A stretch of 64,000 nucleotides of DNA, from contig JAOADG010000008.1 in assembly GCA_026417415.1 (NCBI GenBank), positions 248,001-312,000 on the forward strand, written 5' to 3'. Of the stretch, positions 33,430 through 63,381 are shown in pieces. Source of the DNA: a bacterium (lineage in GTDB: Bacteria; Electryoneota; JAOADG01). Below the pieces are notes generated by a model. The model was not told where the DNA came from. It searched no databases and was given only the letters and a program-made list of their open reading frames with translations. A program made the translations under genes and the position numbers. Numbering within the stretch: position 1 is the stretch's first letter; every line of letters starts with the position of its first letter.

Positions 33430-34326
33430 TTAATTCATCCGCGACTTCGTTTTAGTTTGAACTTCGCGAACTAAATCTAATTCTCGAATTCTAATAAACC
33501 CCCCGTAGTTTAAAGTGAATTTTACTTTTGCTAAAACGGGATCGATAGTGGTTAGAAATCCTAAATAGACAGGGTCACCTTCTTCTAATACAGTTAGAAC
33601 ATTATTTTTATCTTGGATATATGCTTTATTTTTTAGAATAGCAATCAGTTTTGCTCCATCTACTTCAAGTAAACCCTCTTCATTTTTTGGAAGTTTTTCT
33701 ACCACTAAAGGACGAAACGGATTCCAAGGCGTTACATGATATTCTGGTAAATCATCAGGAATTTCATTTGACCCACTTGCTGCTGAATAAGCCACCATTT
33801 TTGCATGAACAGTAACTTTGTATTCATTGTAAGGTTCACCTTCGACGGGTGGTTTAAAATCCAATTGAAAATCTGGAATTACCAGAAGCCGTTTATGGCG
33901 TTCAATCGTAAAGATAAATTCATCTAAGGAAGCGTATGGAACATCGGCGCGAAAAGAGTATTTTCGCGAAGTTACCCCAAGTGTATCCTTTTCACCATTA
34001 AAATCAAAATCAAATGGGAATGGATTATCCAAAGTATCCACCATTCTATTAATAAAACTGTAAGTGATTCTACTATTTTCATCAATGGGAAGAATCTTTT
34101 TTCTTGTTAACCATCGTTTTTCCACTGTTTTTATCTCTTTTTCCATCAAAACGATATCGTTTGCTAAATTTGCATCAGCAATTAACTTTTGGGTTAGAAC
34201 GCTTAGTTGCGATTGGATTTTTATTTTTTCTTTTCTTGTCGGAATTACGATGAAAAACCATCCGATAGAATTTACCAATATCACGAGGACAGTTAATATA
34301 ATAGTATTTCTTAATGCATAACTCAT
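33430..34326 (-). CDS. PilO-PilP fusion-like pilus alignment protein
   Basis: 298 residues. An N-terminal transmembrane helix (~10-28) and a short coiled coil (~32-75) lead into a ferredoxin-like PilO domain (~90-195). After a Pro-rich linker, residues ~225-290 form a small beta domain (LEVDGAKLIAILKNKAYIQD...VLEEGDPVYLG...RIRELDL) that resembles the PilP periplasmic domain. In classic systems PilO and PilP are separate inner-membrane and lipoprotein subunits that bridge PilMN to the secretin. The gene follows the PilM-PilN fusion by 4 bases. PilO part likely; PilP part tentative. Confidence 0.7.
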   Translation of the reverse strand: MSYALRNTIILTVLVILVNSIGWFFIVIPTRKEKIKIQSQLSVLTQKLIADANLANDIVLMEKEIKTVEKRWLTRKKILPIDENSRITYSFINRMVDTLDNPFPFDFDFNGEKDTLGVTSRKYSFRADVPYASLDEFIFTIERHKRLLVIPDFQLDFKPPVEGEPYNEYKVTVHAKMVAYSAASGSNEIPDDLPEYHVTPWNPFRPLVVEKLPKNEEGLLEVDGAKLIAILKNKAYIQDKNNVLTVLEEGDPVYLGFLTTIDPVLAKVKFTLNYGGFIRIRELDLVREVQTKTKSRMN

Positions 34327-34330
34327 ACAA

Positions 34331-36010
34331 TCAACCTACTAAACCCTCTTTGGGAGTTGACGAAGGTGAAGTACGTGGACCCGTTTCTGAAGGTGTTGAA
34401 CCTGATTCCGTTTGAGTCGCTGGTAAATTCTCCGGTTTTTCAGATGGAACATCATCATTGGGATAAGGAACTTTAAATTCAAACTGATACAATATTCGAT
34501 TTTGAACCGTGACACGATTGATGCGTTGGATAACGGTATTTGGAAACAATTTTGATGCTTTAGAAACACTATTGCGATTTAAGGTTTTACCCATTATGGT
34601 GATGCCATCTTTTCCGCTTTGAATAGATTCGAACCAAATGCTCGGTATTTTTTTCCCTTCTGTATTAATCACTTGCAACAATTGACTCCAACGATGTGCA
34701 CCACGAGAAAGCGAATCGGAAAGTAAAAGAAGATTTTGCATCTCCGAAATCTTCAAAGTTAAACTGTCCAACTCGCGACGAAGCATTTGATTTTGCAAAT
34801 CTTGGCTTTGTTTGGTCAACAATTCAAGACGCAATCTGCGTAGTTCACTTTTATACTGACTTCCCAAAAATGTGATAAACAAAGAACTGATAAATAGGGT
34901 GATTAATAAAACATAACCGTGCCATGCAAGATTTAAGGTACGCTGACTACGCCGTATAGCGGTAGGGAGTAAATTTGATTTCCAAAACCCCTCTGGATTT
35001 AAAATTTTAACCGCTAAACCAATTGCAATAATTGCATCCGATTGAATAGCACGTTCTTCTTCTGAAAGAAAGCTATCATCACAATTGGCATTGGATAATT
35101 CTCTGATTTCTACATCAGGATAGCGACGTTCAAAGTATTCAATTGCACCTACAGCATAAATACAACCAGATAAAGCAATGCGATGTATTTCTGTGATATT
35201 GGCTTCATCTTGTTCAAGTAGAATTTTACTTACCAACGTTTGGAGTAAAGTCGGCGAATTTGCACCGGTTTGTATTAAAGGGGCAACGGTAATGACTTCA
35301 CGTCCACGTAAAAACAAAAGGTGTGTAAACTCTGGACCAATATGAATCTGAACCGTTACTTCATTGGGCTTGGCAGGCCATTCTCGATTGAGGACACCTA
35401 TCAAAATAACTTCAACAGGATCCACTAAACTATGTCGGATGCGAACATTTCCTAAAGCAGGTCGCATCTGTTCAAGGCGATTGATGATTTTAATTCCATT
35501 ACGATGGATAATACACCACGCCGGTGCTGTGCTTTGAACCTCTACATGGGAATTGTTAATGGTAACCACTTCACCAATTTTTTCTTCTGCTTCTTTACGA
35601 ATACGATCAACAATCGCATTGGTTTTTTCACTACCGCCATATTCACCAGCATTAAAAAAGCGGACATTAGCAGAAGGGATTGAATACCCTAAACGACATT
35701 TTTTAAGTGGCAATTGCTGTAAAGCAGACAACAGCAAATTGTTATCGTCTTCACTAATTTCTGTGGTTTCAACAATACCGGCTACTGCTGATTCTAAGTC
35801 GCCGCCAAAAACATCTTGACTGCTTTGAACAGTGAAAGCTCCGGTTTCTTTCTCGGATAATCCTTCAAAAGGTATAGACAAGGTTAATTTTTGAAGAGAA
35901 ACAATACGAAGTTGATCGCGAATCTTTGCAACATGTGCGATGGTAATTTCTTTACCATCAATATGAATACCTATTGCACCACCTAAAGATTGAGATAAAC
36001 TTGAGTTCAT
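34331..36010 (-). CDS. PilM-PilN fusion-like pilus assembly protein
   Basis: 559 residues. Residues 1-350 read like PilM, an actin-fold cytoplasmic protein (start GGAIGIHIDGKEITIAHV, middle RLGYSIPSANVRFF). A transmembrane helix (~367-387), a coiled coil (~390-435) and a domain resembling the PilN periplasmic end (HRWSQLLQVI, IPSIWFESIQ) follow. A Pro/Ser/Thr-rich tail ends the protein. PilM and PilN normally bind each other through the PilN N-terminal peptide; here they form one chain. It overlaps the PilT-like gene by 4 bases. Confidence 0.75.
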   Translation of the reverse strand: MNSSLSQSLGGAIGIHIDGKEITIAHVAKIRDQLRIVSLQKLTLSIPFEGLSEKETGAFTVQSSQDVFGGDLESAVAGIVETTEISEDDNNLLLSALQQLPLKKCRLGYSIPSANVRFFNAGEYGGSEKTNAIVDRIRKEAEEKIGEVVTINNSHVEVQSTAPAWCIIHRNGIKIINRLEQMRPALGNVRIRHSLVDPVEVILIGVLNREWPAKPNEVTVQIHIGPEFTHLLFLRGREVITVAPLIQTGANSPTLLQTLVSKILLEQDEANITEIHRIALSGCIYAVGAIEYFERRYPDVEIRELSNANCDDSFLSEEERAIQSDAIIAIGLAVKILNPEGFWKSNLLPTAIRRSQRTLNLAWHGYVLLITLFISSLFITFLGSQYKSELRRLRLELLTKQSQDLQNQMLRRELDSLTLKISEMQNLLLLSDSLSRGAHRWSQLLQVINTEGKKIPSIWFESIQSGKDGITIMGKTLNRNSVSKASKLFPNTVIQRINRVTVQNRILYQFEFKVPYPNDDVPSEKPENLPATQTESGSTPSETGPRTSPSSTPKEGLVG

Positions 36011-37245
36011 AGTCGTAAGAGCAATTCTTGCATTCGCTTTTTATTGTTGGCGAAATCAAGTGCTGTTTGTGGAGTAATTTTACGTAATCCTACCAAACGT
36101 GCTAAATCCTGTTCAACTGTAATCATCCCTTCAGCACTTGATTCATGAATCATTTGATATATTTCAGTAATGTTGTTATTGCGAATCGCTGCGCGTACAC
36201 TTGAATTCATTACCAGAACTTCCTTTGCAAGAACGCGAGTACCATCAGTGGATGGTACCAATTTTTGAGAAACGATACATTGTAGAACATCCGCTAACCT
36301 TAAACGGACGCGTGTTTGTTCAATTTCAGGTACTTCAGCGATAATGCGATCAATTGATTCTACGGCTGATGCTGTATGAAGTGTAGAAAAAACTTTATGG
36401 CCCGAATCAGTGATATCCAGAGCCGTCAATATGGTTTCTGGATCGCGCATCTCACCAATGACAATAATATCCGGATCTTGGCGAAGTGCTTGAATCGCGC
36501 CTTCCTTAAAACTTAAAACATCGCGACCTACTTCACGATGACGAACGATGCATTTATCCGATTGATGAATGGTCTCAATGGGCGAGGCAATGATAACGAT
36601 ATGAGCGTGAATGCTTTTATTATTTGCATCAATAATGCTGTCCAAAGTAGTACTTTTACCAGAACCAGTAATACCAGTGATAAGAATTAACCCCATTTTT
36701 ACGTGCGCCAAAGACATCACACGCGCTACATTGGGATGAAACTCGTAGGATCGAAATGGACGTATAATGTTGGGAATGTGGCGGAAATTCAGAGCAAGGT
36801 GTCCCATTTCGAAATAAGCATCAGCACGAAAACGGTGACGTACTGGTTCTTGAAGGTTCGTTCGACTAATTTCAGTCGTATAGGAAAAATCACAATTCCG
36901 TTTATTCCATAACATCTGTAATTGTGAATCATCAAGTAAATTCAAAATTACGACATCCATTTCATCAGCAGAAAATATGGGAAAACCATCTACGGGACGT
37001 TTGTATCCATGAATGCGATACCAAATTTTTCCACAAGAGGATTCGCCACCTATATCTAAATCTGAAGCTTCAATTTCAGGCATTTTTGCTGCTAAAAATT
37101 GAATGAAATTGTACAATACCGTTCGTTCTTTCCAATCCAATTTATTGAGAATGCTTGACATTTGGCGAAGTCGTTCAATACCAGCAGCAAAAGGATCAAT
37201 TTCATTGATAATGTAATCAGTTAAACTTTTAATTTCTTCATACAT
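36007..37245 (-). CDS. PilT-like ATPase with altered Asp box
   Basis: A hexameric secretion ATPase of the PilT/retraction class. Walker A GITGSGKST, Walker B IIVIGEMRDPET and the His box GHKVFSTLHT are intact. The Asp box, normally TIEDPIEF, reads IIASPIET, so the acidic pair is replaced by Ala-Ser. An N-terminal ~150-residue extension is longer than in PilT, and AIRAG-type end motifs are not recognisable. Possible roles are retraction, a regulatory or weak ATPase, or a structural partner of the two assembly ATPases. It overlaps the lipoprotein gene by one base. Confidence 0.85.
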   Translation of the reverse strand: MYEEIKSLTDYIINEIDPFAAGIERLRQMSSILNKLDWKERTVLYNFIQFLAAKMPEIEASDLDIGGESSCGKIWYRIHGYKRPVDGFPIFSADEMDVVILNLLDDSQLQMLWNKRNCDFSYTTEISRTNLQEPVRHRFRADAYFEMGHLALNFRHIPNIIRPFRSYEFHPNVARVMSLAHVKMGLILITGITGSGKSTTLDSIIDANNKSIHAHIVIIASPIETIHQSDKCIVRHREVGRDVLSFKEGAIQALRQDPDIIVIGEMRDPETILTALDITDSGHKVFSTLHTASAVESIDRIIAEVPEIEQTRVRLRLADVLQCIVSQKLVPSTDGTRVLAKEVLVMNSSVRAAIRNNNITEIYQMIHESSAEGMITVEQDLARLVGLRKITPQTALDFANNKKRMQELLLRL

Positions 37246-38624
37246 TAATCTACCGTACCTGAAGCGGTAATGATCGCATTTCCATTTAGGCCACGAGTTT
37301 CAATGGATATAATGCATGCTTTGGGTGGTTCAGCTTCATTAGGATCATCGTCCGAAAGTGTAAAATAAAACCTGGTCCATCCATCACTTTGAGTATCAGG
37401 AAACACCAAATCAACATCTCCTGTGAGAACACCAACTGTGGCTGAAACTTTAAACGTAGTACCGCGTGACAAGGGATGATTTAACCAATCTGCTAAGTAA
37501 ACTTCAAACGCTTGTGAACCGCGATTTGCAACTGTAAAACTCGTAGGGGTCACTTGAAAAAATCCAATTACACCAGACCACAACAACCGACCTGAAACAG
37601 AATAAGAATTTCCTGTCCAATCTACGGTTTGAACATGAGCATAAGACCAACCTGTTGGTGGATAAGGATTACCACTAAATAGTAAAACCCAAGCAATTCC
37701 ATTATCATTGGTGATACCCATTCCTTGAATAACACCATGATCCGAAGAGAAATAGGCGCGCGTACCTGCAGGGACCGGATTGCTATAGCGATCACCAATA
37801 AGCACCATCACTGTATCAATACGTGCAACCCAATCCAAGCCGGGGAAGTTGATGCGATCAAAACCAATGGTTGTGTGTAATGAATCAGGAGGACCTGAAT
37901 GAATCGTCACTCGCACAGGTCTTGCTACGATTGTATCATTGCAGCTCGCAACAACTTGAACAGTACCGGGGCGGATACCAGAAATGATAGAACAACTAAC
38001 ACGTCCGTTAATATCTGTTACTGCTGTATCATTCCCTAAATATTCTCCACCACCCGTGCTACCTTCTATTCGGAAACGAACCGTTGTACGGTTATTTAGA
38101 TCGACCGGAACGCCACGATTATCACGAACTTCATAGGTTAGTATCATGGCTTCAACGATACCAGTTTCGCGAACACCAATTGATGGTACATTTGATCCAA
38201 TAAAAAGAATAGAAGAGGGTGGACCTGAAGGTCCTGTATGAATGTTTGTATCGGGTGTATCAGCAATATTGCGTAGTTGAAAGGTTGGCAACTCAATCCG
38301 TCGCCCAGATCGTGCCATAATGGAAATTGTATCAGCAATATATTGAGCAGCAGAGGCAATAACATCAACTTCTGCCTGAAAACTATCGCCTGTAATAATC
38401 GTAAAAACATAATCGCCATTGGAATCGGTTCTACCTGTTTCTGGAAATTGTGCTGTACGAACGTTAGCATCTGGAATACCACGATTGGTACGTGCATCAA
38501 CCACACGTCCTGCTAAAGTTACGCTCGTTTCTGAAACAACATTATCATCTTGTTCACAGGATAGATAGAAGAGGGAAGTGAAAGTTAGAAAAATCAAAAA
38601 GCAAAAAAAATGTTCGCGATTCAT
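37245..38624 (-). CDS. Ig-like (invasin-type) lipoprotein in pilus operon
   Basis: 459 residues with a lipoprotein signal peptide (LFYLSC, Cys ~23). Next is a carboxypeptidase-regulatory-like beta-sandwich (VTLAGRVVDARTNRGIPDANV...TDSNGDYVF). Bacterial Ig-like (BIG_1) repeats follow, for example VRFRIEGSTGGGEYLGNDTA with VTDINGRVSCSI, and NPVPAGTRAYFSSDHGVI with TNDNGIAWVLL. Such proteins are adhesive or scaffolding. Being embedded in the pilus operon with one-base overlaps on both sides, it may be a pilotin-like or surface component; this is inference. Confidence 0.78.
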   Translation of the reverse strand: MNREHFFCFLIFLTFTSLFYLSCEQDDNVVSETSVTLAGRVVDARTNRGIPDANVRTAQFPETGRTDSNGDYVFTIITGDSFQAEVDVIASAAQYIADTISIMARSGRRIELPTFQLRNIADTPDTNIHTGPSGPPSSILFIGSNVPSIGVRETGIVEAMILTYEVRDNRGVPVDLNNRTTVRFRIEGSTGGGEYLGNDTAVTDINGRVSCSIISGIRPGTVQVVASCNDTIVARPVRVTIHSGPPDSLHTTIGFDRINFPGLDWVARIDTVMVLIGDRYSNPVPAGTRAYFSSDHGVIQGMGITNDNGIAWVLLFSGNPYPPTGWSYAHVQTVDWTGNSYSVSGRLLWSGVIGFFQVTPTSFTVANRGSQAFEVYLADWLNHPLSRGTTFKVSATVGVLTGDVDLVFPDTQSDGWTRFYFTLSDDDPNEAEPPKACIISIETRGLNGNAIITASGTVD

Positions 38625-39127
38625 TACCTACCCTCACGTAAGAGTAATTCTAATTCTCGGATTCTTTCATTGGCACCAATGAGTTTTGATATAATGATTC
38701 TTGTCAAATTAAACACGAAGAGTTTGAACAAACGTTCCTCTCTTCTACGAAACCAGTCAAGTACTTTATCTCGTTCAAATTGTAAAAGTTCGGTATAAGT
38801 TTCTGCTTCTGCAGTCGCTACGCGTGAGGGACCAAAAAATGATACTTCACCAAATACGGAACCTTTCGTAAGCACTTGATATTTCACTTTTAGGTCGTGA
38901 CTCCAAATGGCTACTTTACCAAAAAGGATTACATAAAAATGATTTGAAGGATACCCTTCACGAACTATTAAAGAGGAGATAGGGTAATCTATCACACGAC
39001 CCATTTGGAGAAAACTTTCTCGTTCATACACTGAAAAACCATGGAGAAGTTGTCCAAAATCAGTGTCCTGATAACCATATCCAGTTTTCCAAGCAGGTAT
39101 TGATTGTTTTGTGGGTTCAGTTTCCAT
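38624..39127 (-). CDS. Stand-alone cyclic-nucleotide-binding-domain protein
   Basis: 167 residues, essentially one CNB domain (~30-130) plus a helical tail. The phosphate-binding cassette is well kept: FGEVSFFGPSRVATAEAET has the Gly-Glu and the Arg that hold cAMP or cGMP in CRP and PKA-type domains. There is no helix-turn-helix, so it is not a transcription factor. It follows assembly ATPase 1 by 7 bases. Its tail (RREERLFKLFVFNLTR) resembles that of the receiver-CNB protein at 44358-45284, so the two are likely paralogues. Confidence 0.85.
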   Translation of the reverse strand: METEPTKQSIPAWKTGYGYQDTDFGQLLHGFSVYERESFLQMGRVIDYPISSLIVREGYPSNHFYVILFGKVAIWSHDLKVKYQVLTKGSVFGEVSFFGPSRVATAEAETYTELLQFERDKVLDWFRRREERLFKLFVFNLTRIIISKLIGANERIRELELLLREGR

Positions 39128-39134
39128 CGTTCAT

Positions 39135-40937
39135 TTACTCATCTGTAGTTGCACTTAATACTTCTTCAACCGTTGTTACACCGCTCTTTACGCGATGTAA
39201 ACCTGATTGACGTAAGGTTAACATACCGTGTTTAATCGCCAAATCACGTATTCCGGCTTCATTAACATCTTCTTTGGAAGCAAGTATAAATTCGCGTATA
39301 TCTTTATGAAAATACAACGCTTCATGAATAGCAGTCCGACCTTTCCAACCGCTGTTACATTTGGAACAACCTACTGGTGCGAAAAATTCGGTTTCTTCAA
39401 TTTCTTGTTCTGTAAAACCTGCACGAAGTAATGCTGCACGCTCCAACTGATTTTTTTCCATAGGTCGTTTGCAGTGAACGCACAGTGTGCGTATTAAGCG
39501 TTGAGCAACGATAATGTTAATTGCATAAGCAATTAAAAAAGGTTCAATTCCCATTTTATACAATCTTGAAACTGCTGAGGGTGCGTCATTGGTATGCAAC
39601 GTCGAAAATGTCAAGTGACCTGTATTGGCAAGTTTAATTCCTAACTCTGCAGTTTTTTTATCTCTCATTTCGCCAACCATCACAATATCCGGATCATGTC
39701 GTAAAATCGCACGAATGGCTGCATCAAAATCCAACTTATGACTAATTTTGATTTGCCGAGCACCTTTAATCAAGTATTCTACAGGTTCTTCAACAGTGAG
39801 GACACATTTTTCTGGAGTAATCACATAATAGAGAGCACCCATTAAAGTGGTAGATTTTCCACTCCCAGTCGGACCTGTCAGTATCACCATTCCTTGCGGG
39901 GCAGAGATAGCTTTCAAATAGTCAGCTTTTGCTTGCGGTTGTAAACCTAATTTTTCTAAATCAGTAATAACCTTACGATCATCAATAATACGAATGACAA
40001 TAGATTCCAATTTCCGATCAAATTCTTGGCCAACAATAGGAATGATAGATACACGAAAACGCATCATATGATCATCAATTTTCCGTTGAATAAAACCATC
40101 TTGTGCCATATCCCTTTCAAAACGGTCCACATTTTTTGAACGATCTTTCACCACAGCAGCAATCGCTTCTGGTTTAATTCCATCTTGGCGATGCCATAAT
40201 CGTAATTTTCCATCTAAACGAAAATAGAATTCTGTTACATTTCCAGCCAATGGAATGATATGAATATCACTAGCACCTTGACGGACCCCTTCTACTAAGC
40301 AACCTTCAATAAGATTGACCAGCAACGATTGATTGATTTCAGCATCCAAGGCCTCTTCATCAATTGCTGTGGGCTCTTCGCTGATTACTTCAATACTTTT
40401 CGTCGTTTCTTCTAATATCTGAAGAAACTCATTTTTAACAGGATACAGTTGTTGGATTACATTTTGCAGTGATTCTAATTTGCAATAAACGATTTCATAA
40501 CGTTTGATTCCTAAATCGGTGACGATATCAGATAAATCACGTTCAGTAGGATCGGGTGTTAGGATAATCGTTTGACGTTGGTTATTTCCTGGTAATACCA
40601 AGATCTTTCGATCCAAAAGGGTATCGCGATTTCGTTCGCTAATGTTGTCATAGAACGATTTAATACTATCCAATTGTTCTTGTGTAAAGGGGGTAAGTTC
40701 TAAATCTACTGTTTTAAAAGCATACAAAGTTGCAATAGTACTAAATACTTTATCGCGATTAATCCCTAAATCTGTAACTAAAATCTCTCCTAATTTTCTT
40801 TTTCCTTTGGTGGGTTCACGGTTTTGGATGTCAATTGCTTTGTTAAGTTGTTCAAGAGTAATCACCCCTTGTTCTACCAATAGATAACCTAAACGGTTAG
40901 GAGATTTTAAGGTAGAAAGAATTGGGTTGGAACTCAT
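39135..40937 (-). CDS. GspE/PilB-type assembly ATPase 1
   Basis: 600 residues. The N-terminal ~60 residues match the MshEN/T2SSE_N pattern (NRLGYLLVEQGVITLEQLNKAI...KLGEIL). The ATPase core has Walker A GPTGSGKST, Asp box VEEPVEY, Walker B VMVGEMRDKKTAE and His box GHLTFSTLHTNDA. A zinc-binding tetracysteine loop is formed by CVHC and CSKC. These features define PilB/GspE-type extension or secretion ATPases. It lies 2 bases after the platform protein gene and is a close paralogue of the ATPase at 45286-47112. Confidence 0.95.
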   Translation of the reverse strand: MSSNPILSTLKSPNRLGYLLVEQGVITLEQLNKAIDIQNREPTKGKRKLGEILVTDLGINRDKVFSTIATLYAFKTVDLELTPFTQEQLDSIKSFYDNISERNRDTLLDRKILVLPGNNQRQTIILTPDPTERDLSDIVTDLGIKRYEIVYCKLESLQNVIQQLYPVKNEFLQILEETTKSIEVISEEPTAIDEEALDAEINQSLLVNLIEGCLVEGVRQGASDIHIIPLAGNVTEFYFRLDGKLRLWHRQDGIKPEAIAAVVKDRSKNVDRFERDMAQDGFIQRKIDDHMMRFRVSIIPIVGQEFDRKLESIVIRIIDDRKVITDLEKLGLQPQAKADYLKAISAPQGMVILTGPTGSGKSTTLMGALYYVITPEKCVLTVEEPVEYLIKGARQIKISHKLDFDAAIRAILRHDPDIVMVGEMRDKKTAELGIKLANTGHLTFSTLHTNDAPSAVSRLYKMGIEPFLIAYAINIIVAQRLIRTLCVHCKRPMEKNQLERAALLRAGFTEQEIEETEFFAPVGCSKCNSGWKGRTAIHEALYFHKDIREFILASKEDVNEAGIRDLAIKHGMLTLRQSGLHRVKSGVTTVEEVLSATTDE

Positions 40938-40939
40938 GA

Positions 40940-42283
40940 TTAGGTTCCCGGCATTTTAGGTTTAATTACTGCTGTCTCAGAAGAGACAATCGTGATAGCA
41001 GTCATAACAAACATGATAATCATTGCAATGGCGACTTGAATTAAATCAATGATGGTGCGAAGTTTATAGGTAGTTTCCTTTTCGTAATAATTCGCTACTT
41101 GAAGCGCGGTATATCTTATCGTACCTGTTTCTGCACCACTGCGCAAGCGGGATAAGGCATTTTCTGTAAAGACACCAGTGGCTTCTAACGATTCCACCAA
41201 ACCTTTTCCTTCTTTTAACATCATTGGAATAGCAATTTCGGTAATCTGTTTTTCCATATAACGGTTGTTACATGCTTCTGCTGCTACGCGTATCGCTTCA
41301 ATGTTTTCACCTGATCCACCATACAAAGAATAAAACACTCGACAAAAAATTTCAATAGAAGTTTTATGCATTAAGGAACCCACAACGGGTATTCGGATAA
41401 GATATTTGTTAATGATAAATTTCCCTTTTTCTGAAGTTACAAAGAAATATCCACCAATCACAGGAATCAAAGTCAAGATTGTCAAAATTAACCAATTTCT
41501 TTGAAGAAAATAAGATAAATCCAATGTTGCTTTCGTCATTGGAGGGAGAGGGATATTAAACCGAACAAACAATTCTGCTGTTTTAGGAAATATGTACCCT
41601 ACATAGAAAGCAACTGCAATTGCTAAAACAATCATCACAATGGTTGGCATAATAAGAGCAGATTTAAGATTTTTTTTAAATTCGGCAGTACGCTCTAAAA
41701 ATTTTGCAGTCGATTCATAAATTTCCACCATATTTCCTGATTTAGAAGCAACCCCTAACATATAAGCGGCAAATTTTCCCAAACCGCGTTCATGTTTACC
41801 GAATACTTCTTTTCCATCTTTTCCTTCACGTAGATCTTTACTAATTTCTCTTAAAATCTCACGCAGTGCTTTGTTTTGAATATCGTTGGATAATAACGTT
41901 AAAATTTCATCATAAGGCATTTTTTCGCGTAAGAGATCTGCGGACAAACGTATAAACATAACCACTTCATTTCGGGGTGGTTTAACATTAAAATCGAAAA
42001 GTTTTGGTTGGATAGAGAGTACCTTATATCCTAACCTTTCTAGTGCATTGCGAACTTCTTCTATAGAATATGCTTTTTGCTCACCTTTGATGGGTGCATC
42101 GGTTCCTTTTTGAACTTTATAGATGAAAGTTCGTTTTTTTTGAACAGCAGTTAATTTGAAATGATGTTTGAGTGCAAGTTCTTGAGCACGTTTGAGGGCT
42201 TCTGATTTACTTGTAGAAGGGATTATTCCTTGTACTAATTTTCCCGTCGGTGTAAGCCCAACATAACGAAAATCAATAGACAC
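40940..42283 (-). CDS. PilC/GspF inner-membrane platform protein with extra N-domain
   Basis: 447 residues. Two GspF repeats are seen at ~105-230 and ~305-430, each ending in hydrophobic helices (ALIMPTIVMIVLAIAVAFYVG and QVAIAMIIMFVMTAI). The standard FRYVGLTPTGKLVQGII start is followed by a second similar small domain (YSIEEVRNALERLGYKVLSIQPK), giving ~100 residues before the first repeat, more than usual. The protein sits under the pilus and couples ATPase movement to pilin insertion. It lies between the pilin terminator and ATPase 1. Confidence 0.92.
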   Translation of the reverse strand: MSIDFRYVGLTPTGKLVQGIIPSTSKSEALKRAQELALKHHFKLTAVQKKRTFIYKVQKGTDAPIKGEQKAYSIEEVRNALERLGYKVLSIQPKLFDFNVKPPRNEVVMFIRLSADLLREKMPYDEILTLLSNDIQNKALREILREISKDLREGKDGKEVFGKHERGLGKFAAYMLGVASKSGNMVEIYESTAKFLERTAEFKKNLKSALIMPTIVMIVLAIAVAFYVGYIFPKTAELFVRFNIPLPPMTKATLDLSYFLQRNWLILTILTLIPVIGGYFFVTSEKGKFIINKYLIRIPVVGSLMHKTSIEIFCRVFYSLYGGSGENIEAIRVAAEACNNRYMEKQITEIAIPMMLKEGKGLVESLEATGVFTENALSRLRSGAETGTIRYTALQVANYYEKETTYKLRTIIDLIQVAIAMIIMFVMTAITIVSSETAVIKPKMPGT

Positions 42284-42372: not shown

Positions 42373-42398
42373 AATGGGCTTGCAAAAGCAAGCCCATT
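42373..42398 (-). terminator. Hairpin terminator/attenuator after the pilin gene
   Basis: An 11-bp perfect stem (AATGGGCTTGC / GCAAGCCCATT) with a 4-base loop, followed by TTTTT in the minus-strand transcript. It lies ~20 bases after the pilin stop and before the platform gene, so it should let pilin mRNA accumulate above the downstream machinery genes. Confidence 0.8.
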
Positions 42399-42418: not shown

Positions 42419-42826
42419 TTAACGTGTTATAGTTGGTGTTGGAACCGTTGTGGCAGTGATTCCAGCATAAACCACAGTAACGCCTTCACGTCCTACACCA
42501 GTTAATGTCATCGTGTTCACGCCGCGAGCAGAAATCGTAAATTGATCACCATTTGCATTGGTCCAAACAGTAGTTCCTGGACCAACCGGTTTTCCGATAA
42601 TAGAAAAATCAAAGTTGGTGTAGTCGTTTTGGACAGCTGGACCACCAAGTGCTGCTGGTTTACGAACCCATTGTTGTGCTGCGCTTATGATGCCTAAGCA
42701 TTCTTGAACCACTTGGTCTTCATTTGCTTGCTTGGCACTGGTTCCAAATAAATTGATACCGATCACTACAGCGATACCTACAATGATAACGCCAAGGACG
42801 ATCAAGAGAAGTTGTTGTTGACCCAT
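42419..42826 (-). CDS. Pilin-like protein with atypical N-terminus
   Basis: 135 residues from ATG 42826, fixed by GGAGGAAATT just upstream. It begins MGQQQ and has one long hydrophobic helix (LLLIVLGVIIVGIAVVIGI), then an amphipathic stretch (AKQANEDQVVQECLGIISAAQQWVRKP) and a Gly/Thr-rich beta half. This is pilin architecture, but the G/FTLIE prepilin site is missing: no charged leader and no Glu at +5. If processing occurs, cleavage after Gly2 is conceivable. Strong ribosome binding site, long leader and own terminator all point to high expression as the major subunit. Function inferred from architecture and locus. Confidence 0.72.
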   Translation of the reverse strand: MGQQQLLLIVLGVIIVGIAVVIGINLFGTSAKQANEDQVVQECLGIISAAQQWVRKPAALGGPAVQNDYTNFDFSIIGKPVGPGTTVWTNANGDQFTISARGVNTMTLTGVGREGVTVVYAGITATTVPTPTITR

Positions 42827-43133
42827 AATTTCCTCCGAATGAATTGAATGATTAGGATAAAGTGCGATATCAGATCGAATCCCCATTGCTTTCGCAATAA
42901 CAGTCAAGATAGTGTAAACTATTCCTACTGCTTTCTCACTGATATCTGTTTTCCAACAGGTGGCTGAAAATCGCAAAGAACAACATCAACCACTACGTAA
43001 AGAATAAAATAAAAAAAAGTAAAGAACAAGTAAAAAAGAGAATTTGTAAATTTAATATGTGATAGATAACCACCTAAAAAATAATTATAATTACCAATAA
43101 ATGTGATATAAGTCAACTCAAATATTCTATTAC
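42827..43133 (-). other. Long structured 5' leader/upstream region of the pilin gene
   Basis: This is 307 bases between the secretin stop and the pilin ATG. On the minus strand it contains three short perfect hairpins: CTGTT-GGAA-AACAG (42959-42946), ATAGT-TTAC-ACTAT (42922-42909) and ATTGC-GAAA-GCAAT (42898-42885). Two have GNRA loops. A TTGACT and a downstream TATAAT occur near 43110-43080 but are 21 bp apart, too far for a standard promoter. The known c-di-GMP riboswitch cores were not recognised. Confidence 0.45.
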
Positions 43134-44321
43134 TTATTCTTCCACTTGCTTTTCTAAATTCCGTAAACGTTGTTCTCGTTTAGCTTTTTCTGTATCTAAA
43201 CGCTGCTCCATTAAACGCTGCTCCATTCGTGTACGCAGATCTGGCTCTAAATCCACTTTAAGCATGATGACCAACTCTTTTTGATTAACCAATTCACGTT
43301 CATACCCTGCTATATATCGTATCCCCAAAACCCACCAGGGTAAATCTTTCAAGAAAGGAATCCCTTTGCGTGTCGTACGTTTTTCAGTGGTATATAAACC
43401 ACCAATCGCTGCTTCTTCACCGGGCAACATCAATAAAGAAGTACTTGCTTGTGATTTATTAATCGTTGTTGTGAGTTGGCTAACATCACCTGTAGAACGT
43501 TCAACATTAATTTTGAGGAGTATAAAGGTAACTCCTTTATCAACAATTACTGTTGGTTGAACGCGTAAAATAGTACCAGCAGATACAAAAGATTCAATCG
43601 TGTTTCCTGCAAAATCACGGGTCTTTATAGAAAAATCTTGACCTACTTGTACATATCCTTCTTGCTTATCGCGCACTCGGATCTGTGGATTCGACAGCAC
43701 ATGCCCTAATCCTTTGTTCTCGAATGTCTTTACTAATCCAGAAACCGATAATGAACGATCAATTTGTCTTTGAATAGATAAAGTAAAAATATTGTTATCA
43801 GATACATTTTCTGCTGTTTGTTGTACTGCAGAAGTATTTACGACTCCAGATGAAATGGTACTCCAGTTTATCCCTAATTCACGTAAAGCCGATCGATCCG
43901 CTTCAAAAAAAATGGCTTCTATAATCACTTCCCGCGTATCTACACCAATTAAATCAACTTTTTCCAAACCTTCCGTTTTTTTTGTCAAAGGGTTGTACAC
44001 ACGAATGAAATTTGGTCCCTCTTCAAATTCTAATTCATTCTTTTTACATATCATTTCCAAAGCTTTTCGCCAGTGTGTATTGATAATCTCTATTCCAATC
44101 GCATTGGTTTTTTCTGAATGATCAACAATCACTTTCCCAATGGTTTTGAACGATACTTCATTGATCAATTGAAGGGCTTTACCAATTTCAACGGTTTCTG
44201 AAATAGAAACATTGAAATCAGGTTGATTCCCTTTAGTCCACTCAGGACGCGGTTGAGTTTGTGAGAAACTATAAAAAGGAAAAAAAATAACAATGAAAAA
44301 AATTAAAATTTGTTGTTTCAT
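43134..44321 (-). CDS. Short secretin (PilQ/GspD family)
   Basis: 395 residues with a signal peptide (MKQQILIFFIVIFFPFYSFSQ). One small N-domain of STN/N0 type (VIVDHSEKTNAIGIEI...WRKALEMICKKNELEF) comes first, then a secretin core (VIIEAIFFEADRSALRELGINW, LSNPQIRVRDKQEGYVQVGQ, LLMLPGEEAAIGGLYTTEKR...GIPFLKDLP). It forms the outer-membrane gate. It is shorter than typical PilQ/GspD because most N-domains are missing, and it ends in a charged coiled coil (MEQRLMEQRLDTEKAKREQRL). ATG 44321 is preferred to TTG 44330. Confidence 0.9.
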   Translation of the reverse strand: MKQQILIFFIVIFFPFYSFSQTQPRPEWTKGNQPDFNVSISETVEIGKALQLINEVSFKTIGKVIVDHSEKTNAIGIEIINTHWRKALEMICKKNELEFEEGPNFIRVYNPLTKKTEGLEKVDLIGVDTREVIIEAIFFEADRSALRELGINWSTISSGVVNTSAVQQTAENVSDNNIFTLSIQRQIDRSLSVSGLVKTFENKGLGHVLSNPQIRVRDKQEGYVQVGQDFSIKTRDFAGNTIESFVSAGTILRVQPTVIVDKGVTFILLKINVERSTGDVSQLTTTINKSQASTSLLMLPGEEAAIGGLYTTEKRTTRKGIPFLKDLPWWVLGIRYIAGYERELVNQKELVIMLKVDLEPDLRTRMEQRLMEQRLDTEKAKREQRLRNLEKQVEE

Positions 44322-44357
44322 AGCATACAACCGATTAAAAAATAGATTTTGTCAAAC

Positions 44358-45284
44358 TCAATTGTAAGATGAATGACTTTTTATACGATTTGTCAGAGAC
44401 AATTCTTGAAATACAATATCCATCCATTCTGTCTGCTGACGAATCAAATTCAGTATCCACAATTTAAACAATCGCTCTTCGTGAACTTTAAAAAACGAAA
44501 TTGCTTCTTTAGGAGTGATGCGAAAGATATGCGATTCTTCTTCAGCAATAAGGGTAACGGGCGCAAAAGAAATTTGCAAAAGCGAAAAAGCACCCCATGC
44601 ATCACCCGTACGTAAAATTAGTATAGAGCTATGATTGCGCTCTATACGTATCCTACCAGATAGAACAACAATGATACTACTCTGATTTTCCCATTCAACA
44701 CGACTGCCTTCATTTAAGGTAATTTCTTTACCAATCGTTCTAAATTGGAGATACTCTTCATACTTCCAACCCTTGAACAATTTTGGTAATAAGGTGTCTT
44801 CATATTTTCTTTCATCGTATTGAACTAACAAAGAACGCATTTTTTCAATTTGGGTTTCAGCTTGTCGGATTGCTCGCCTTTGATGAATTAACTCAACGGC
44901 ATTGCGTATGGTAACTTCTAATTCAGTTAATAATATTGGCTTAGAAAGAAAATCAAAAGCGCCGCGTTTCATCGCTTCACGCATGGTCTCTTTAGTATCT
45001 AAAATCGTAAATACTATAAGTACTACATCTGGGTTTTTTGTATGTAATTTTTCCATTAGTTCAAAACCATGCATTCCCGGCATAGCGAGGTCAGTAATCA
45101 CTAAGTCGATAGGATACGTATTAAATAATTCTAATGCTTCTTCGCCACTATTGGCTGTTAAGGTTTGATAGCCATAAGATTCAATCGCTGCCTTCATAAA
45201 ATCTGTGATACTGGATTCATCATCTACGACTAGAACGTGTATAACTTCACTGGGTTTGCCGAAAATATTTTCTATTTGGGTCAT
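44358..45284 (-). CDS. Response regulator with C-terminal cyclic-nucleotide-like domain
   Basis: 308 residues. A complete receiver domain comes first (acidic VVDDE, phospho-Asp in VITDLAMPG, Thr in VFTILD, Lys in SKPILL). A coiled linker follows, then a CNB-fold domain from ~185. The phosphate-binding cassette is degenerate: WGAFSLLQISFAPV lacks the Glu and Arg. The tail (HEERLFKLWILNLIR) matches that of the CNB protein at 38624. ATG 45284 lies one base after the ATPase 2 stop, with GGAAG upstream. It likely relays a phospho-signal to the pilus ATPase rather than to DNA, as there is no DNA-binding domain. Confidence 0.85.
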   Translation of the reverse strand: MTQIENIFGKPSEVIHVLVVDDESSITDFMKAAIESYGYQTLTANSGEEALELFNTYPIDLVITDLAMPGMHGFELMEKLHTKNPDVVLIVFTILDTKETMREAMKRGAFDFLSKPILLTELEVTIRNAVELIHQRRAIRQAETQIEKMRSLLVQYDERKYEDTLLPKLFKGWKYEEYLQFRTIGKEITLNEGSRVEWENQSSIIVVLSGRIRIERNHSSILILRTGDAWGAFSLLQISFAPVTLIAEEESHIFRITPKEAISFFKVHEERLFKLWILNLIRQQTEWMDIVFQELSLTNRIKSHSSYN

Positions 45285-45285
45285 A

Positions 45286-47112
45286 TCAATCTTCCATTGT
45301 TGTGGCAACAACTTCTTCTATGGTTGTTATACCTTCTTTAATTCTTTCTCGTCCACTAGCACGAAGGGTCAACATTCCTTCACTAACTGCTAAATCGCGG
45401 AGTTCATCTTCATTTATATCGGTTTTGCTATTGATAATAAATTTGCGGATAGTACGAGAAAAATACAACGCTTCATGAATCGCTGCACGACCCTTGTAAC
45501 CTTGATTGCAAAGTTCGCATCCAACGGCTTCATAAAAAATGGTATTTTTTATTTCCTGATCGTTAAATCCAAGCGCACGTGCTACCTGATCATCAATTAA
45601 TTTAGACGGTCGTTTACAATGTGGACAAAGTGTACGTAACAATCGTTGTGCAACTACAATATTCATTGCAGTGGCAATCAAAAAAGGTTCAACCCCCATT
45701 TTGTAAAGTCGTGATACTGCAGAAGGCGCATCGTTGGTATGTAATGTGGAAAAGGTTAAATGGCCTGTGTTTGCAAGTTTTATAGCAATTTCTGCGGTAA
45801 TTTTATCTCGCATTTCTCCTACCATCACAATATCAGGGTCATGTCTTAAAATTCCACGTATAGCGCCTTCAAAATCTAAAGTATGAGATAAACGAATCTG
45901 ACGTGCATCGCGAATCATGTATTCTACAGGATCTTCAATGGTAAGTACATTTTTTTCTGGTGTCAATACTTGATAAAGTGCAGCAAGAAGTGTAGTTGAT
46001 TTTCCGCTACCTGTCGGACCTGTGAGGATTACCATCCCTTGAGGTCGTGTTATGGCTTTCACAAACGCTTCTTTTGCCTGTTTATGAAATCCTAATTTTG
46101 ACAAATCAGTGATTACTTTACGATCATCTAAGACACGAATGACAATTGACTCAAATTTCCTGCGAAAATCTTGCGCCACAATCGGCATAATGCTTACACG
46201 AAAACGAATCACTGCACCATCAATTTGACGTTGTATAAATCCATCTTGAGAAGCATCCCAAACAAATCGATCAACATTCCGAGTGCGATCTTTAATCACT
46301 GCCGAAATCGTTTCTGGTTTAAATCCTTCTTGAGTGTGCCATAATCTAAGTTTTCCATCAATTCTAAAAAGAAAGTCCGTCCGATTTTGACCACGAGGAA
46401 GAATGTGGATATCACTGGCTCCTTTTCTAACTGCTTCAACTAAGCAACCTTCAACCAAATTAATTAAAAGTGAACTGTTAGTATCTAAATCAAGTTCAAT
46501 TTCATCAGGTCCAGTTTCTTCTTCTTGAGGAATGGATGCAACTTCACTGGTATATTCTTCAATTAAAGCCAAAAATTCATTTTGTGGTTTTTCAACTTCA
46601 TCTAAAATTTGAGTAATTTCTTGTAGCGAAGCATAAGCCAATTCGTATCTAGAAAGTTTTAATTGAAACAGGAGCAAATTCAGTGAAGGATCAGTTACAT
46701 CTTCAGTGATAAAGGTAATAATATCATTCGAGTTATTAGGAAATTTGTAAGGGATAATATGATTGATTAAAAATTTTTGTTTCGTCTCTTCTGAAACTTT
46801 TTCAAAAAAATCACGTATGTAAGTATATAAATCATCTTTTTTAATTTGTGATAGATCAACCTCAGGAAACCCGTAAATTCTGGCAATTGTACGAAAGACT
46901 GCATCGCGATTACAACCTAAATCGGTTGATAAAATTTCACCAAACCGACGTTTTGCAGGTCCTTCGCGTCGTTGAATTTCCAAAGCTTTTTGAACTTGTT
47001 GAGGGGTTGCAATACCTAACTCTATCAATTGATCACCCAGACGAGTCATGGTCTGTTCTGAACCTGAACGATTAGGTGTAGTTTTTCCTGGAGTCGGTAG
47101 AATTGGAGACAT
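45286..47112 (-). CDS. GspE/PilB-type assembly ATPase 2
   Basis: 608 residues, colinear with ATPase 1 at 39135-40937. MshEN-like N-terminus (TRLGDQLIELGIATPQQVQKAL...RFGEIL), Walker A GPTGSGKST, canonical Asp box IEDPVEYM, Walker B VMVGEMRDKITAE, His box and CPHC/CELC zinc loop are all present. The N-terminal 20 residues are Pro/Ser-rich. It is first in the pilus operon. Two near-equal extension-type ATPases in one locus suggest either two functional states of one machine or two substrates. Confidence 0.95.
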   Translation of the reverse strand: MSPILPTPGKTTPNRSGSEQTMTRLGDQLIELGIATPQQVQKALEIQRREGPAKRRFGEILSTDLGCNRDAVFRTIARIYGFPEVDLSQIKKDDLYTYIRDFFEKVSEETKQKFLINHIIPYKFPNNSNDIITFITEDVTDPSLNLLLFQLKLSRYELAYASLQEITQILDEVEKPQNEFLALIEEYTSEVASIPQEEETGPDEIELDLDTNSSLLINLVEGCLVEAVRKGASDIHILPRGQNRTDFLFRIDGKLRLWHTQEGFKPETISAVIKDRTRNVDRFVWDASQDGFIQRQIDGAVIRFRVSIMPIVAQDFRRKFESIVIRVLDDRKVITDLSKLGFHKQAKEAFVKAITRPQGMVILTGPTGSGKSTTLLAALYQVLTPEKNVLTIEDPVEYMIRDARQIRLSHTLDFEGAIRGILRHDPDIVMVGEMRDKITAEIAIKLANTGHLTFSTLHTNDAPSAVSRLYKMGVEPFLIATAMNIVVAQRLLRTLCPHCKRPSKLIDDQVARALGFNDQEIKNTIFYEAVGCELCNQGYKGRAAIHEALYFSRTIRKFIINSKTDINEDELRDLAVSEGMLTLRASGRERIKEGITTIEEVVATTMED

Positions 47113-53029: not shown

Positions 53030-53116
53030 ATTTCTAAATCAAACGCTAAATTTTATTGTAGAATTTCTAAGTAAGAATTAAATTGATAACCTAAGATTGG
53101 GATACTGAGGTTGTTC

Positions 53117-56100
53117 ATGTATTGTTGCATCAAAATCGGTGAACCTCACCATTTTTTCAAATTTCTTTTTTCTATTTTTTTCCTTCTATTGACATTTCAA
53201 CCAAGTTGGTCCTCTACACCTTTTGATCAATCCTTTATTGGAATTCCAAATCAAGACAATGTAAAGATCTCCCATCAACGATATCCAAATGGCACAATTG
53301 TCTTACAAGTTTCCATCAATCATTATGAAATTCGGCAGGTATATGAAAACAACCGACTTTGGAATTGGATTGATCTATCAGGTGAAACAAGAAAATGGGA
53401 AGTCGGTGCTCCACAGGTTCCAGTTATTGCAAGAGCAATCCGTTTACCTAATACTGGAAAAGTGTCTTGGAATATTCTATCACAACAATATGAATGGTTA
53501 AATGATATCCTATTGTATCCACAACAGGAAATGTCCATTGAAACAGAAAAAGGAATTGAACAACCCAATTCATTTATTGTTAACGAACAAATATATCAAA
53601 CGGATCAATTTTATCCTTTAGAAACTATTCTTTTGGGGCAACCAGCCATTTTAAGAGATGCAAGAATTGCTTTACTTGGAATCCAGCCGTTACAGTATAA
53701 CCCAGTTACCAAAGTAGCGAAATTATTGACATATCTCGAACTAGAAATTGTACCGGTCGGAGGTACAGGGGAAAATGAAATCCATCATCCACCTAAACCT
53801 GTTCCCAGTTTTGCTGCTTTATATCGTGATGTTATTGGTGCGGAGGATTTGGTACTTGATAATGCTTCAGCACCACCTGGACAAATTTTGATTATTAGTA
53901 AAAATTATACCACCAATAGGAATGCAATCCAACCCCTTTTGGACTGGAAAAATAGGACGGGTTACCCAATTCAATTGCAAACACCTACAGGATCTTCCAT
54001 CACGGTGCAAACCATACAAAACATCATCAACAATGCTTTCACTACTTTCAATCCACCTCTTGAATTTGTCATTTTAGTAGGCGATGGAGGTCCACAAGGT
54101 CAAACCTTTATGCCTACTTACTTTGTAAATCAGGTGGCTACTGATCATCCATATGGACAATTGGTCGGAAATGATATCTTAGCGGACGTAAGTATTGGAA
54201 GATTCAGTATTGCAAATGTGAATCAACTGCAGCTTATGGTCAATAGAACCATCATGTATGAAAAAGCCAACGAAACAGATACCACTTGGTATAAAAAGGG
54301 GTGGGGATATGCAGGAATTTCACACGGTGTACTTTCTAATCGTGCTGCGATTCAATTTTGCAATGAAATGATGCGAAATCGTGGGATTACTACTACCTAT
54401 TATGATGAACACAATGGATTAATTAGTACTACCCTACTTACCCAACGATTAACCCCTGGAGCATTATTTTGGGCGCACCGTGCTGCTTGGGTTGGAGAAA
54501 TTAGTGTAAATGATATTTCTACGATAAATAACATCAACAAACCTTTTGTTGCGGTCAACATCACTTGTGGAAGTGGAAATTGGTATGATACAGATACAGG
54601 AATTCACGAAGCACTGACCCGTTTAGGTACTCCTACTGCGCCTGCTGGCGCGTTGGCTGGATTATCTACTGCAACGCCAAATACTCATCCTGCATTCAAT
54701 AACGTCGTTACAACAGGTGTGTTTTATGGGTTAGGGGTATTAAAAGCAAGACAGTTCGGAACTATGGTGTTATCCGGAAAGTTCCAATTATGGAGAAACT
54801 TCAATCTTTCATTGCCGGATCAAGTGAACAATTTTTCCTATTGGAACAATACAATGGGCGATATTTCCGCTAACTTATGGACAAATGTTCCAAAGATCAT
54901 CACGATGAATGCACCGGATACTATTACGACATACACCAATTCGCTTTCGCTTACTGTAAACCATCAAAACCAACCTATTCCGAATGTTTTGGTAACCGTG
55001 TACAAAAAAAATTCAACTGGTGCTACTGAAATCTATCAGCGTCAAATTACAAATGAATCAGGACAAGTTACATTCACGTTTTCAAATCCAACGATAGGAA
55101 CAATGTATATTTCAGCAGTTGGAATCCATCCCAATGACAATTGGAAACCTTATGTAGATTCAATGATAGTTTATCAACCACAATTGGGTCTTGCGCTAAA
55201 TTCAATTTTGATAGATGATGACAATCAAAACGGTACTGTAGGAAATGGCAACCAATCTCCAAATCCTAACGAAACGATAGATATAAACTTCAATTTAATT
55301 AACAATGGAAATGTACCAATCAATGCTTTTACTGCAACCCTTTCCACACTCAACGCTTCAATCACGGTTCTTAATCCAACTCAAAATTATCCTTCTATTG
55401 CAGTGGGCGCCAATGCATCTGCCCAAGCGCCATTTCGAGTGATTATACCCCCTTATCTCCCTGAAAATCACCTCAATCTTCTAACTTTGACATTTCAGTC
55501 CAATCCAATGATGGATCCGATTACTATCCCTTTGATAATCCGTTCAATTAAAACCGCATTTGATTCTTTGCAAATCTTTCCTTCAACAAATTGGGATGTA
55601 GGTAGTACAGTTCAATTTGCAGCAAATTTTAGAAATATCGGCGGTTTATCATTAAACTCAAGTATTACAGGGACACTATCTACTTCATCACGTTATGTGA
55701 CGGTAGTGCAACCAGTTGCCACTTTTCAAACCTTTCCGAATTCTGGTACCATAACCAATTCAGTTACTCAAAGATGGCAAGTTCACTCATCACTTGCTAC
55801 TCCAAGGGGTGCTGTAATTCCATTTCAAGTACTGTTTTCAAATGGTTCTGTATCGGATACCTTGCGTTTTACTGCAACTGTCGGTACCCCGACCATGTAT
55901 GATGTTGTCGGGCCTGATGCTTATGGATATTATGCCTACGAGAATATGGATACTGCCTATTCTGCACATCCCAATTTTAACTGGATTGAGATCATTCCTG
56001 CTTATGGCGGGCAAGGAACGCGGTTGACCATTTTCGACTATGCTTACAATCAAGATAGTAGTGTGGTGATGCGACTTCCGTTTCCAGTTCGATTTTATGG

Positions 56101-62001: not shown

Positions 62002-63381
62002 TTAAGAAATAAACCTACCTATTCTATGAAATAAATCATCGCAATAACTTTCTGCCAAATCTTTCGTTGTCGCTTCTGCAAAAACCCGTATTATAGGTTC
62101 AGTATTGCTTCCACGAATTTGGACCCAACCATGTTCGCGAAACTGTTTTAATCCATCCAATCTATCCCATAGTTCATAAGGTCTTTCATTTGCGAATGCT
62201 TCTAAAAATTGATGAATGCCGCCGTATTTTTCCAAAATATTTGAATCCAAATGAATGGAGCGTTTTATCAGTTCATATCTTGGGATTTCTTTTAGGATTT
62301 GGCTCAGAGGACCTCGTTGAGCAATCGCGGATAAAATAAGTGCTATTCCAACCAAACTATCTCTACCCGGATGGCAAGATGGAACCATTACACCACCATT
62401 GCCTTCACCACCACATACAGCATTCACTTCAAGCATTTTTTCTGCTACATTTGCTTCACCCACTTTTGTGCGGTATACCGGTACTTGGTAACGTTTCGCA
62501 ATCTCTTCCACTGCCATTGTAGTGGAGATATTCACCACCACAGGTCCTTTCATAACTCGTAAAACCTGATCAATAGCTATAACCAAGGTAGTTTCTTCAC
62601 CTAAAGGTGTACCGTCAGACCCTACAATAGCAAGCCGATCACCATCCGGATCAAAAGCAAAACCGATGTCTGAATGTGAACGAATTACCTCTTCGCCTAA
62701 GGCAATGAGTACATCTGGTGTAGGTTCTAATTTTCGTTGAAAGTTTCCGTCAGCATCCATCCCTAAAGAATTATCACTCATTTGAACATTCAGTTTTTCT
62801 AATAGACGTGGAATGCATTTACCTGCAACGCCATTTCCACCATCGCAGGAAACTTTCAATCTAGCATGACGAATAGCATCTACATCAACCCCCGGGGTTT
62901 TTAGCACACGTTCAATATGGGCATCAACTATATCAAGCGGTGATGGTATTGTAGTTCCCAATTGACGCCATTCAGAATAATGAAAGGTACGATTGGAAAC
63001 GATTTGGTGTAGCATACGTCCTTCGCTCTCTAAAAGAAATCTTCCATCTTTGCGGAAAAATTTTAAGGCGTTCCATTCGGCTGGGTTATGTGATGCTGTG
63101 ATGGCAATACCACCATCCGCATGCAGTTCCTCAATTCCAATAGCAATCGTTGGAGTAGCAGCAATACCTAAATCGTAAACTTGACAACCGCAAGATTCCA
63201 AAGTACCGAACACCACTTTTCTGATTGCTTCTCTTGTAGGACGGGGATCACCACCTACAACCACTTTTGCGCCTTTTGGAAGCTGAGATGCAAAAGCACT
63301 GACCCAATGAACAATCACTTCAGGAGTTAGGTCAATTCCCACAATACCGCGAACACCAGACACGGATACCATTAACGGCAT
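62002..63381 (-). CDS. Phosphohexomutase (phosphoglucosamine mutase-like)
   Basis: 459 residues of the alpha-D-phosphohexomutase family. The phospho-serine loop is ITASHNPAEWN near residue 97, the metal loop DPDGDRLAIV near 243, the sugar loop GGEGNGGVM near 325 and the phosphate-binding loop RGSNTEPIIRV near 425. It starts VSGVRGIVGIDLTPE, closer to GlmM than to PgcA. The probable role is GlcN-6-P to GlcN-1-P for cell-wall precursors; a phosphomannomutase or phosphoglucomutase role cannot be excluded. Confidence 0.9.
   Translation of the reverse strand: MPLMVSVSGVRGIVGIDLTPEVIVHWVSAFASQLPKGAKVVVGGDPRPTREAIRKVVFGTLESCGCQVYDLGIAATPTIAIGIEELHADGGIAITASHNPAEWNALKFFRKDGRFLLESEGRMLHQIVSNRTFHYSEWRQLGTTIPSPLDIVDAHIERVLKTPGVDVDAIRHARLKVSCDGGNGVAGKCIPRLLEKLNVQMSDNSLGMDADGNFQRKLEPTPDVLIALGEEVIRSHSDIGFAFDPDGDRLAIVGSDGTPLGEETTLVIAIDQVLRVMKGPVVVNISTTMAVEEIAKRYQVPVYRTKVGEANVAEKMLEVNAVCGGEGNGGVMVPSCHPGRDSLVGIALILSAIAQRGPLSQILKEIPRYELIKRSIHLDSNILEKYGGIHQFLEAFANERPYELWDRLDGLKQFREHGWVQIRGSNTEPIIRVFAEATTKDLAESYCDDLFHRIGRFIS

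Follow-up and report, generated by a model that had tools for sequence, protein, structure and literature searches.

A probable major pilin without a prepilin leader in a type IV pilus-like operon of FCB-group bacteria

Cleavage of prepilins by a peptidase of their own is regarded as a step that helps to define all type IV filaments. Type IV pilins are made with a class III signal peptide that is cut by this enzyme, with leaders of 6 to 26 residues (PMC4471445). Where an MSH locus lacks a peptidase gene, another system in the same genome always provides one (PMC6668835), and the T2SS cluster of Cytophaga hutchinsonii encodes its own, the Peptidase_A24 gene CHU_3197 (PMC5553014). The leaderless system described here departs from the rule of a class III signal peptide and a genome-encoded peptidase.

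We analyzed a 64,000-nt stretch of contig JAOADG010000008.1 (the window), which encodes a 135-aa protein on the minus strand (42826-42419) with the N-terminus MGQQQLLLIVLGVIIVGIAVVIGINLF; coordinates, strand, and sequence were all verified. The initial annotation described a protein of pilin architecture that lacks a recognizable prepilin peptidase site and lies inside a pilus operon, and this description was upheld by the gene order, the AlphaFold2 model, and the peptidase-less genomes of other carriers. The features of the locus are as follows.

33430-34326, minus strand: PilN/O/P-like protein, assigned from its conserved position and a weak match to the canonical PilO of the same genome (E 5e-5)
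34331-36010, minus strand: putative PilM-like protein, its C-terminal part transmembrane and PilN-like, assigned from its conserved position; no Pfam match
36007-37245, minus strand: PilT-type (probable retraction) ATPase (TIGR01420, 308 bits against a cut-off of 319)
37245-38624, minus strand: lipoprotein-like protein (domain matches: carboxypeptidase-regulatory and Big_1)
38624-39127, minus strand: putative CRP-like (cyclic-nucleotide-binding-like) protein, domain assigned by eye
39135-40937, minus strand: PilB-type assembly ATPase, copy 2 (PF00437, 4e-96; syntenic)
40940-42283, minus strand: PilC/GspF-type platform protein (PF00482, 7.7e-31)
42373-42398, minus strand: intrinsic terminator just behind the pilin gene, an 11-pair stem and T-run (42398-42373)
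42419-42826, minus strand: probable leaderless major pilin (MGQQQ protein, 135 aa), from homologues, closed upstream frames, and the AlphaFold2 model
43134-44330, minus strand: secretin (PilQ-like), here upstream of the pilin gene (PF00263, 1.9e-24; TIGR02515, 1e-25, below cut-off)
44358-45311, minus strand: response regulator with a cNMP-binding-like domain (PF00072, 2.8e-28)
45286-47112, minus strand: PilB-type assembly ATPase, copy 1 (PF00437, 1.9e-98)

The conserved operon reads MGQQQ-PilC-PilB-(CRP-like)-PilT-PilM-PilN-secretin, with the pilin gene first, and its parts are the pilin, PilC, PilB, PilT, PilM/N, PilN/O/P, and the secretin, with no prepilin peptidase gene. Loci with this T4P core and without a peptidase gene were found in Balneolota, Ignavibacteria, Kryptonia, KSB1, Calditrichota, Rhodothermia, and Cloacimonadota, and the machine is widespread among relatives of the Bacteroidota. 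With a PilB-type ATPase, a PilC platform, and a secretin encoded alongside the pilin, the operon specifies a machine of the type IV filament kind, the subunits of which fail the defining leader test. The PilC of the window showed a median identity of 54% to pilin-linked PilCs elsewhere, as opposed to 24% to its canonical counterpart in the same genome, and the PilT-type ATPase showed 39% identity to the canonical PilT of that genome. CRP-like genes occupy the same operon position in many Balneolota operons. The lipoprotein-like gene at 37245-38624 fills the slot that is taken at other loci by the probable minor pilins described below; genes related to it sit divergently upstream of the pilin gene in many Balneolota loci.

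In the window protein, MGQQQ immediately precedes the hydrophobic helix, and the ribosome binding site that had been noted earlier was located as a GGAGG ~7 nt 5' of the ATG. The frame remains open upstream as far as a TTG at 42976, a candidate start that was ruled out by the closed frames of relatives. In the nearest relative (L003, 84% identity), the upstream frame is closed after 10 codons, and in two others (L007 and L013) within 0 to 3 codons. In FCB-group phyla, 109 copies gave a median upstream opening of 4 codons, and none had an in-frame ATG there. Because the upstream frames of the relatives close early without an ATG, MGQQQ represents the true N-terminus, with no leader. All copies examined start with MGQQQ or a close variant, rather than with a leader of 6 to 26 residues ending in Gly before the hydrophobic helix, and there is no Glu near position 5. 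Furthermore, 107 of the 109 copies have no charged residue within the first 27, and just 2 have one. The initial annotation was thus correct in placing the start directly before the helix and in reporting neither a Gly-ending leader nor Glu5. No Pfam, NCBIfam, or PHROG family matched the window protein above cut-off, and neither PF07963 (N_methyl) nor any other pilin model did so.

G2, Q4, and Q5 were invariant and position 3 was Q or T in 99 distinct copies, an invariance that is partly by construction for copies from the genome_contigs scan, since that scan was seeded with MGQQQLLL and L[GS]VIIVG[IV]A. The same motif was found in an unseeded search of the phylum and in tandem copies found with phmmer, along with rarer variants of the MGTQQ, MGSQQ, and MGSTQ types. 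The unseeded search gave matches in 20 of 39 genomes of the window's phylum; 14 of them carried true MGQQQ-type proteins, as judged by reading the matches, and the others were divergent with different N-termini. At least 472 loci were confirmed in a one-genome-per-species collection, and the record titles among the matches listed included Balneolota, Ignavibacteria, Kryptonia, KSB1, Calditrichota, Marinimicrobia, Rhodothermia, and Cloacimonadota. A phage gene was also considered and ruled out, with a single viral-contig match. The pilin gene often occurs in 1 to 3 tandem copies, the C-terminal halves of which diverge; together with the terminator, this fits an abundant surface-exposed subunit.

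In divergent relatives of the pilin (L016, L017, and L023 to L025), the N-terminus is charged and the membrane anchor is plain; several of them share a genome with the MGQQQ form. The window's own genome encodes a distant relative of the pilin C-terminal domain (L002, 1492-1878; G000 contig C26, ~62026-62394). This protein starts with MVNKNFLFLFLAFLIGVSFYSCK, and a lipoprotein-type signal with a lipobox replaces the pilin helix.

The hairpin with its T-run starts just past the pilin stop codon. A lone terminator match in the window is at chance level taken by itself; across homologous pilin genes, a terminator followed 28 of 105, compared to 1.2% of shuffles and none of 55 PilC genes, and this recurrence supports the earlier claim that the gene has its own terminator. 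The gap between the 5' end of the pilin gene and the secretin gene is ~307 nt. No promoter was recognized in this gap, the FCB-type motif TTTG-N-TANNTTTG was absent near the gene, and no Rfam family was found in the gap. The "long leader" proposed earlier therefore stands as a long upstream gap and not as a mapped transcript.

AlphaFold2, run with 87 aligned sequences, predicted a single helix at residues 2 to 55 (54 residues) and a small sheet of short strands, with a mean pLDDT of 91.9. The model thus has the order expected of a pilin, an N-terminal hydrophobic helix of ~53 residues and then a beta sheet, whereas a Foldseek search of the PDB with this model returned insignificant, low-TM matches alone. 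The best matches of a profile search against the PDB included geopilin and Thermus PilA5, both weak (E of 0.015 and 0.25, respectively), with G17 and F27 aligned to the canonical G14 and residue 24. An hhalign comparison with canonical pilins gave the same register at 30% probability. Given the lack of a significant Foldseek match, the pilin fold rests on the architecture and on weak profile matches, mainly in the helix. The comparison with pilins proposed in the initial annotation was thereby answered by the helix-plus-sheet architecture but not by a significant superposition in the PDB.

Peptidase_A24 was absent from 29 of the 40 genomes carrying the MGQQQ pilin, most of the carriers being draft assemblies; those without it include one complete Balneolaceae chromosome and four isolates. 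The search was positive in 12 of 14 control genomes and in 19 of 21 relatives of the window. The A24 N-terminal domain showed the same pattern and was likewise rare in carriers. Canonical N_methyl pilins were absent from 27 of 39 carrier genomes. Ten genomes had both PilD and a canonical pilin, none had PilD only, two had the pilin only (both draft genomes), and 27 had neither. A single PilC, that of the MGQQQ operon, was present in 24 of the 27 peptidase-less genomes, a count that includes G060 with its third weak match below cut-off; the complete chromosome CP051242.1 (L101/G046) is among them. No conserved peptidase gene was found in the operons. PilD is encoded in the window's genome, next to a canonical T4P cluster that is complete, lies apart from the MGQQQ locus, and has a GFTLIE pilin. 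A canonical major pilin encoded elsewhere, which had been named as evidence against the pilin reading, is thus present in this genome together with PilD; however, it belongs to a separate cluster, and most carriers lack both.

Three more conserved leaderless families (MNTGQ..., MSSxLDI..., and MGRxxLI...) have a hydrophobic helix right at the start and resemble PilV/GspI, PilW/GspJ, and PilX/GspK in order and sizes. They adjoin machine genes in 15 to 20 loci, mostly between PilB and PilT, and are probably minor pilins, a leaderless set that the initial annotation had overlooked. When 27 genomes were searched for two of the three families, 26 had them. The first family occurred in 12 of the 14 genomes of the window's phylum that have an MGQQQ-type pilin and in none of that phylum's 25 others. 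The profile of the third, PilX-like family matched a leader-bearing PilX-like minor pilin of the window's own genome (1.8e-4) and some MGQQQ proteins (E of 2.7e-5), two values that hydrophobic-helix composition may inflate. The model of the GspJ/PilW-like protein (pLDDT of 74) showed one long helix (3 to 57) and a beta domain. A Foldseek search of the PDB with it gave no significant match, profile searches of the PDB and Pfam that started from these families yielded no useful match, and no Gly-cut motif was common to the families. In the window's genome, the three genes are clustered on another contig (L146), and in a complete Balneolaceae chromosome (L147) they likewise lie away from the main operon.

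In L147 (7259-11076), the minor-pilin operon is succeeded by a few small exported proteins and by a gene that resembles a chaperone, possibly of the chaperone-usher type. Two large gingipain-like proteins (window 53111-58360 and L146 2658-7877) have C-terminal YPNPFN-type sorting domains, which suggests type IX secretion; the gene of one of them adjoins the leaderless minor-pilin genes in L146.

The true start, the operon, the fold architecture, the absence of the peptidase from most carriers, and the co-occurring leaderless families are established here. On these grounds, the protein is very probably the major pilin of a distinct T4P branch in which major and minor pilins alike are leaderless and bypass processing by a prepilin peptidase. 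We infer that cleavage does not occur because the peptidase is missing in most carriers. The initial annotation had left open a new pilin class with either a two-residue leader or no processing. Of the two, no processing is better supported, as 29 of 40 carriers have no A24 peptidase whatever, and the same absence weighs against MG being a leader that PilD, or some unrelated peptidase, would cut off behind Gly2. We consider such a cut quite unlikely: G2 is invariant, Gly at -1 is a prepilin hallmark (PMC4471445), and the window's own genome does have PilD, but known leaders are 6 to 26 residues long (PMC4471445), the minor pilins share no Gly-cut motif, and the operons hold no conserved peptidase gene.

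The filament might also be a T2SS-like secretion pseudopilus instead of a surface pilus, its subunits still being leaderless. The GspI/J/K-like partner set and the secretin agree with this, whereas the PilT-type ATPase conserved in the operon and the PilM-like proteins, typical of T4aP, make it rather improbable. It is very hard to credit that the protein is a small adaptor for the PilC/PilB machine in the inner membrane with the true pilins elsewhere, since a canonical pilin is missing altogether from 27 of 39 carrier genomes, the gene has its own terminator and occurs in 1 to 3 tandem copies that vary C-terminally, and the model is a long helix with a sheet. An adaptor would accord with the lack of a significant Foldseek match and with a weak similarity to MacB_PCD in 36 of 87 members; for the window protein, this similarity falls below cut-off.

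As an unprocessed pilin, the protein would insert with its N-terminus in the cytoplasm and the hydrophobic helix (~residues 6 to 27) as membrane anchor. PilB with PilC would then pull it out of the membrane into the filament, PilM/N/O/P and the secretin would take the filament across the envelope, and PilT would retract it. The invariant Gln4 and Gln5, usually with Gln3, presumably replace the packing role of the N-terminal amine and Glu5 through hydrogen bonding. The anatomy is compatible with a type IV pilus that can retract and in which the subunits are already mature on entering the membrane.

It is also likely that these pili form an ancient FCB-wide T4P class, with filament and tip built only of never-cleaved leaderless pilins, and that the prepilin peptidase is not essential for assembling type IV filaments. 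Our search of an open-access literature library found no description of the N-terminal motif, of leaderless or unprocessed pilins, or of peptidase-less pili. If the proposal is true, the contributions of leader removal, N-methylation, and Glu5 could be told apart, and it would explain why the pili of these phyla escape annotation models keyed on prepilins and PilD. The cultivable genera Gracilimonas and Fodinibius would be suited to testing it.

Compared with archaeal type IV pilins, in which Glu5 is also often missing (PMC4471445), the leaderless pilin differs in that the archaeal proteins keep a class III signal peptide, on which a prepilin peptidase acts. The Cytophaga hutchinsonii T2SS belongs to a related bacterial group and likewise has a secretin, an ATPase, a platform, and a pseudopilin, but CHU_3197 lies in its cluster and the MGQQQ operon has no such gene. 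MSH (MSHA) pili resemble the new system in having loci without a prepilin peptidase gene; however, most MGQQQ carriers have no peptidase anywhere in the genome. MSH prepilins retain the cleavage site. The type IVa pili (PilA, PilB, PilC, PilT, PilM-Q, and PilD) share the same motor, platform, alignment proteins, and secretin, the long N-terminal helix with a small beta sheet, and PilV/W/X-like minor subunits. Unlike them, the leaderless system has no class III signal peptide, no Glu5, and, in most carriers, no prepilin peptidase, and the window PilC shares only 24% identity with its canonical counterpart in the genome.
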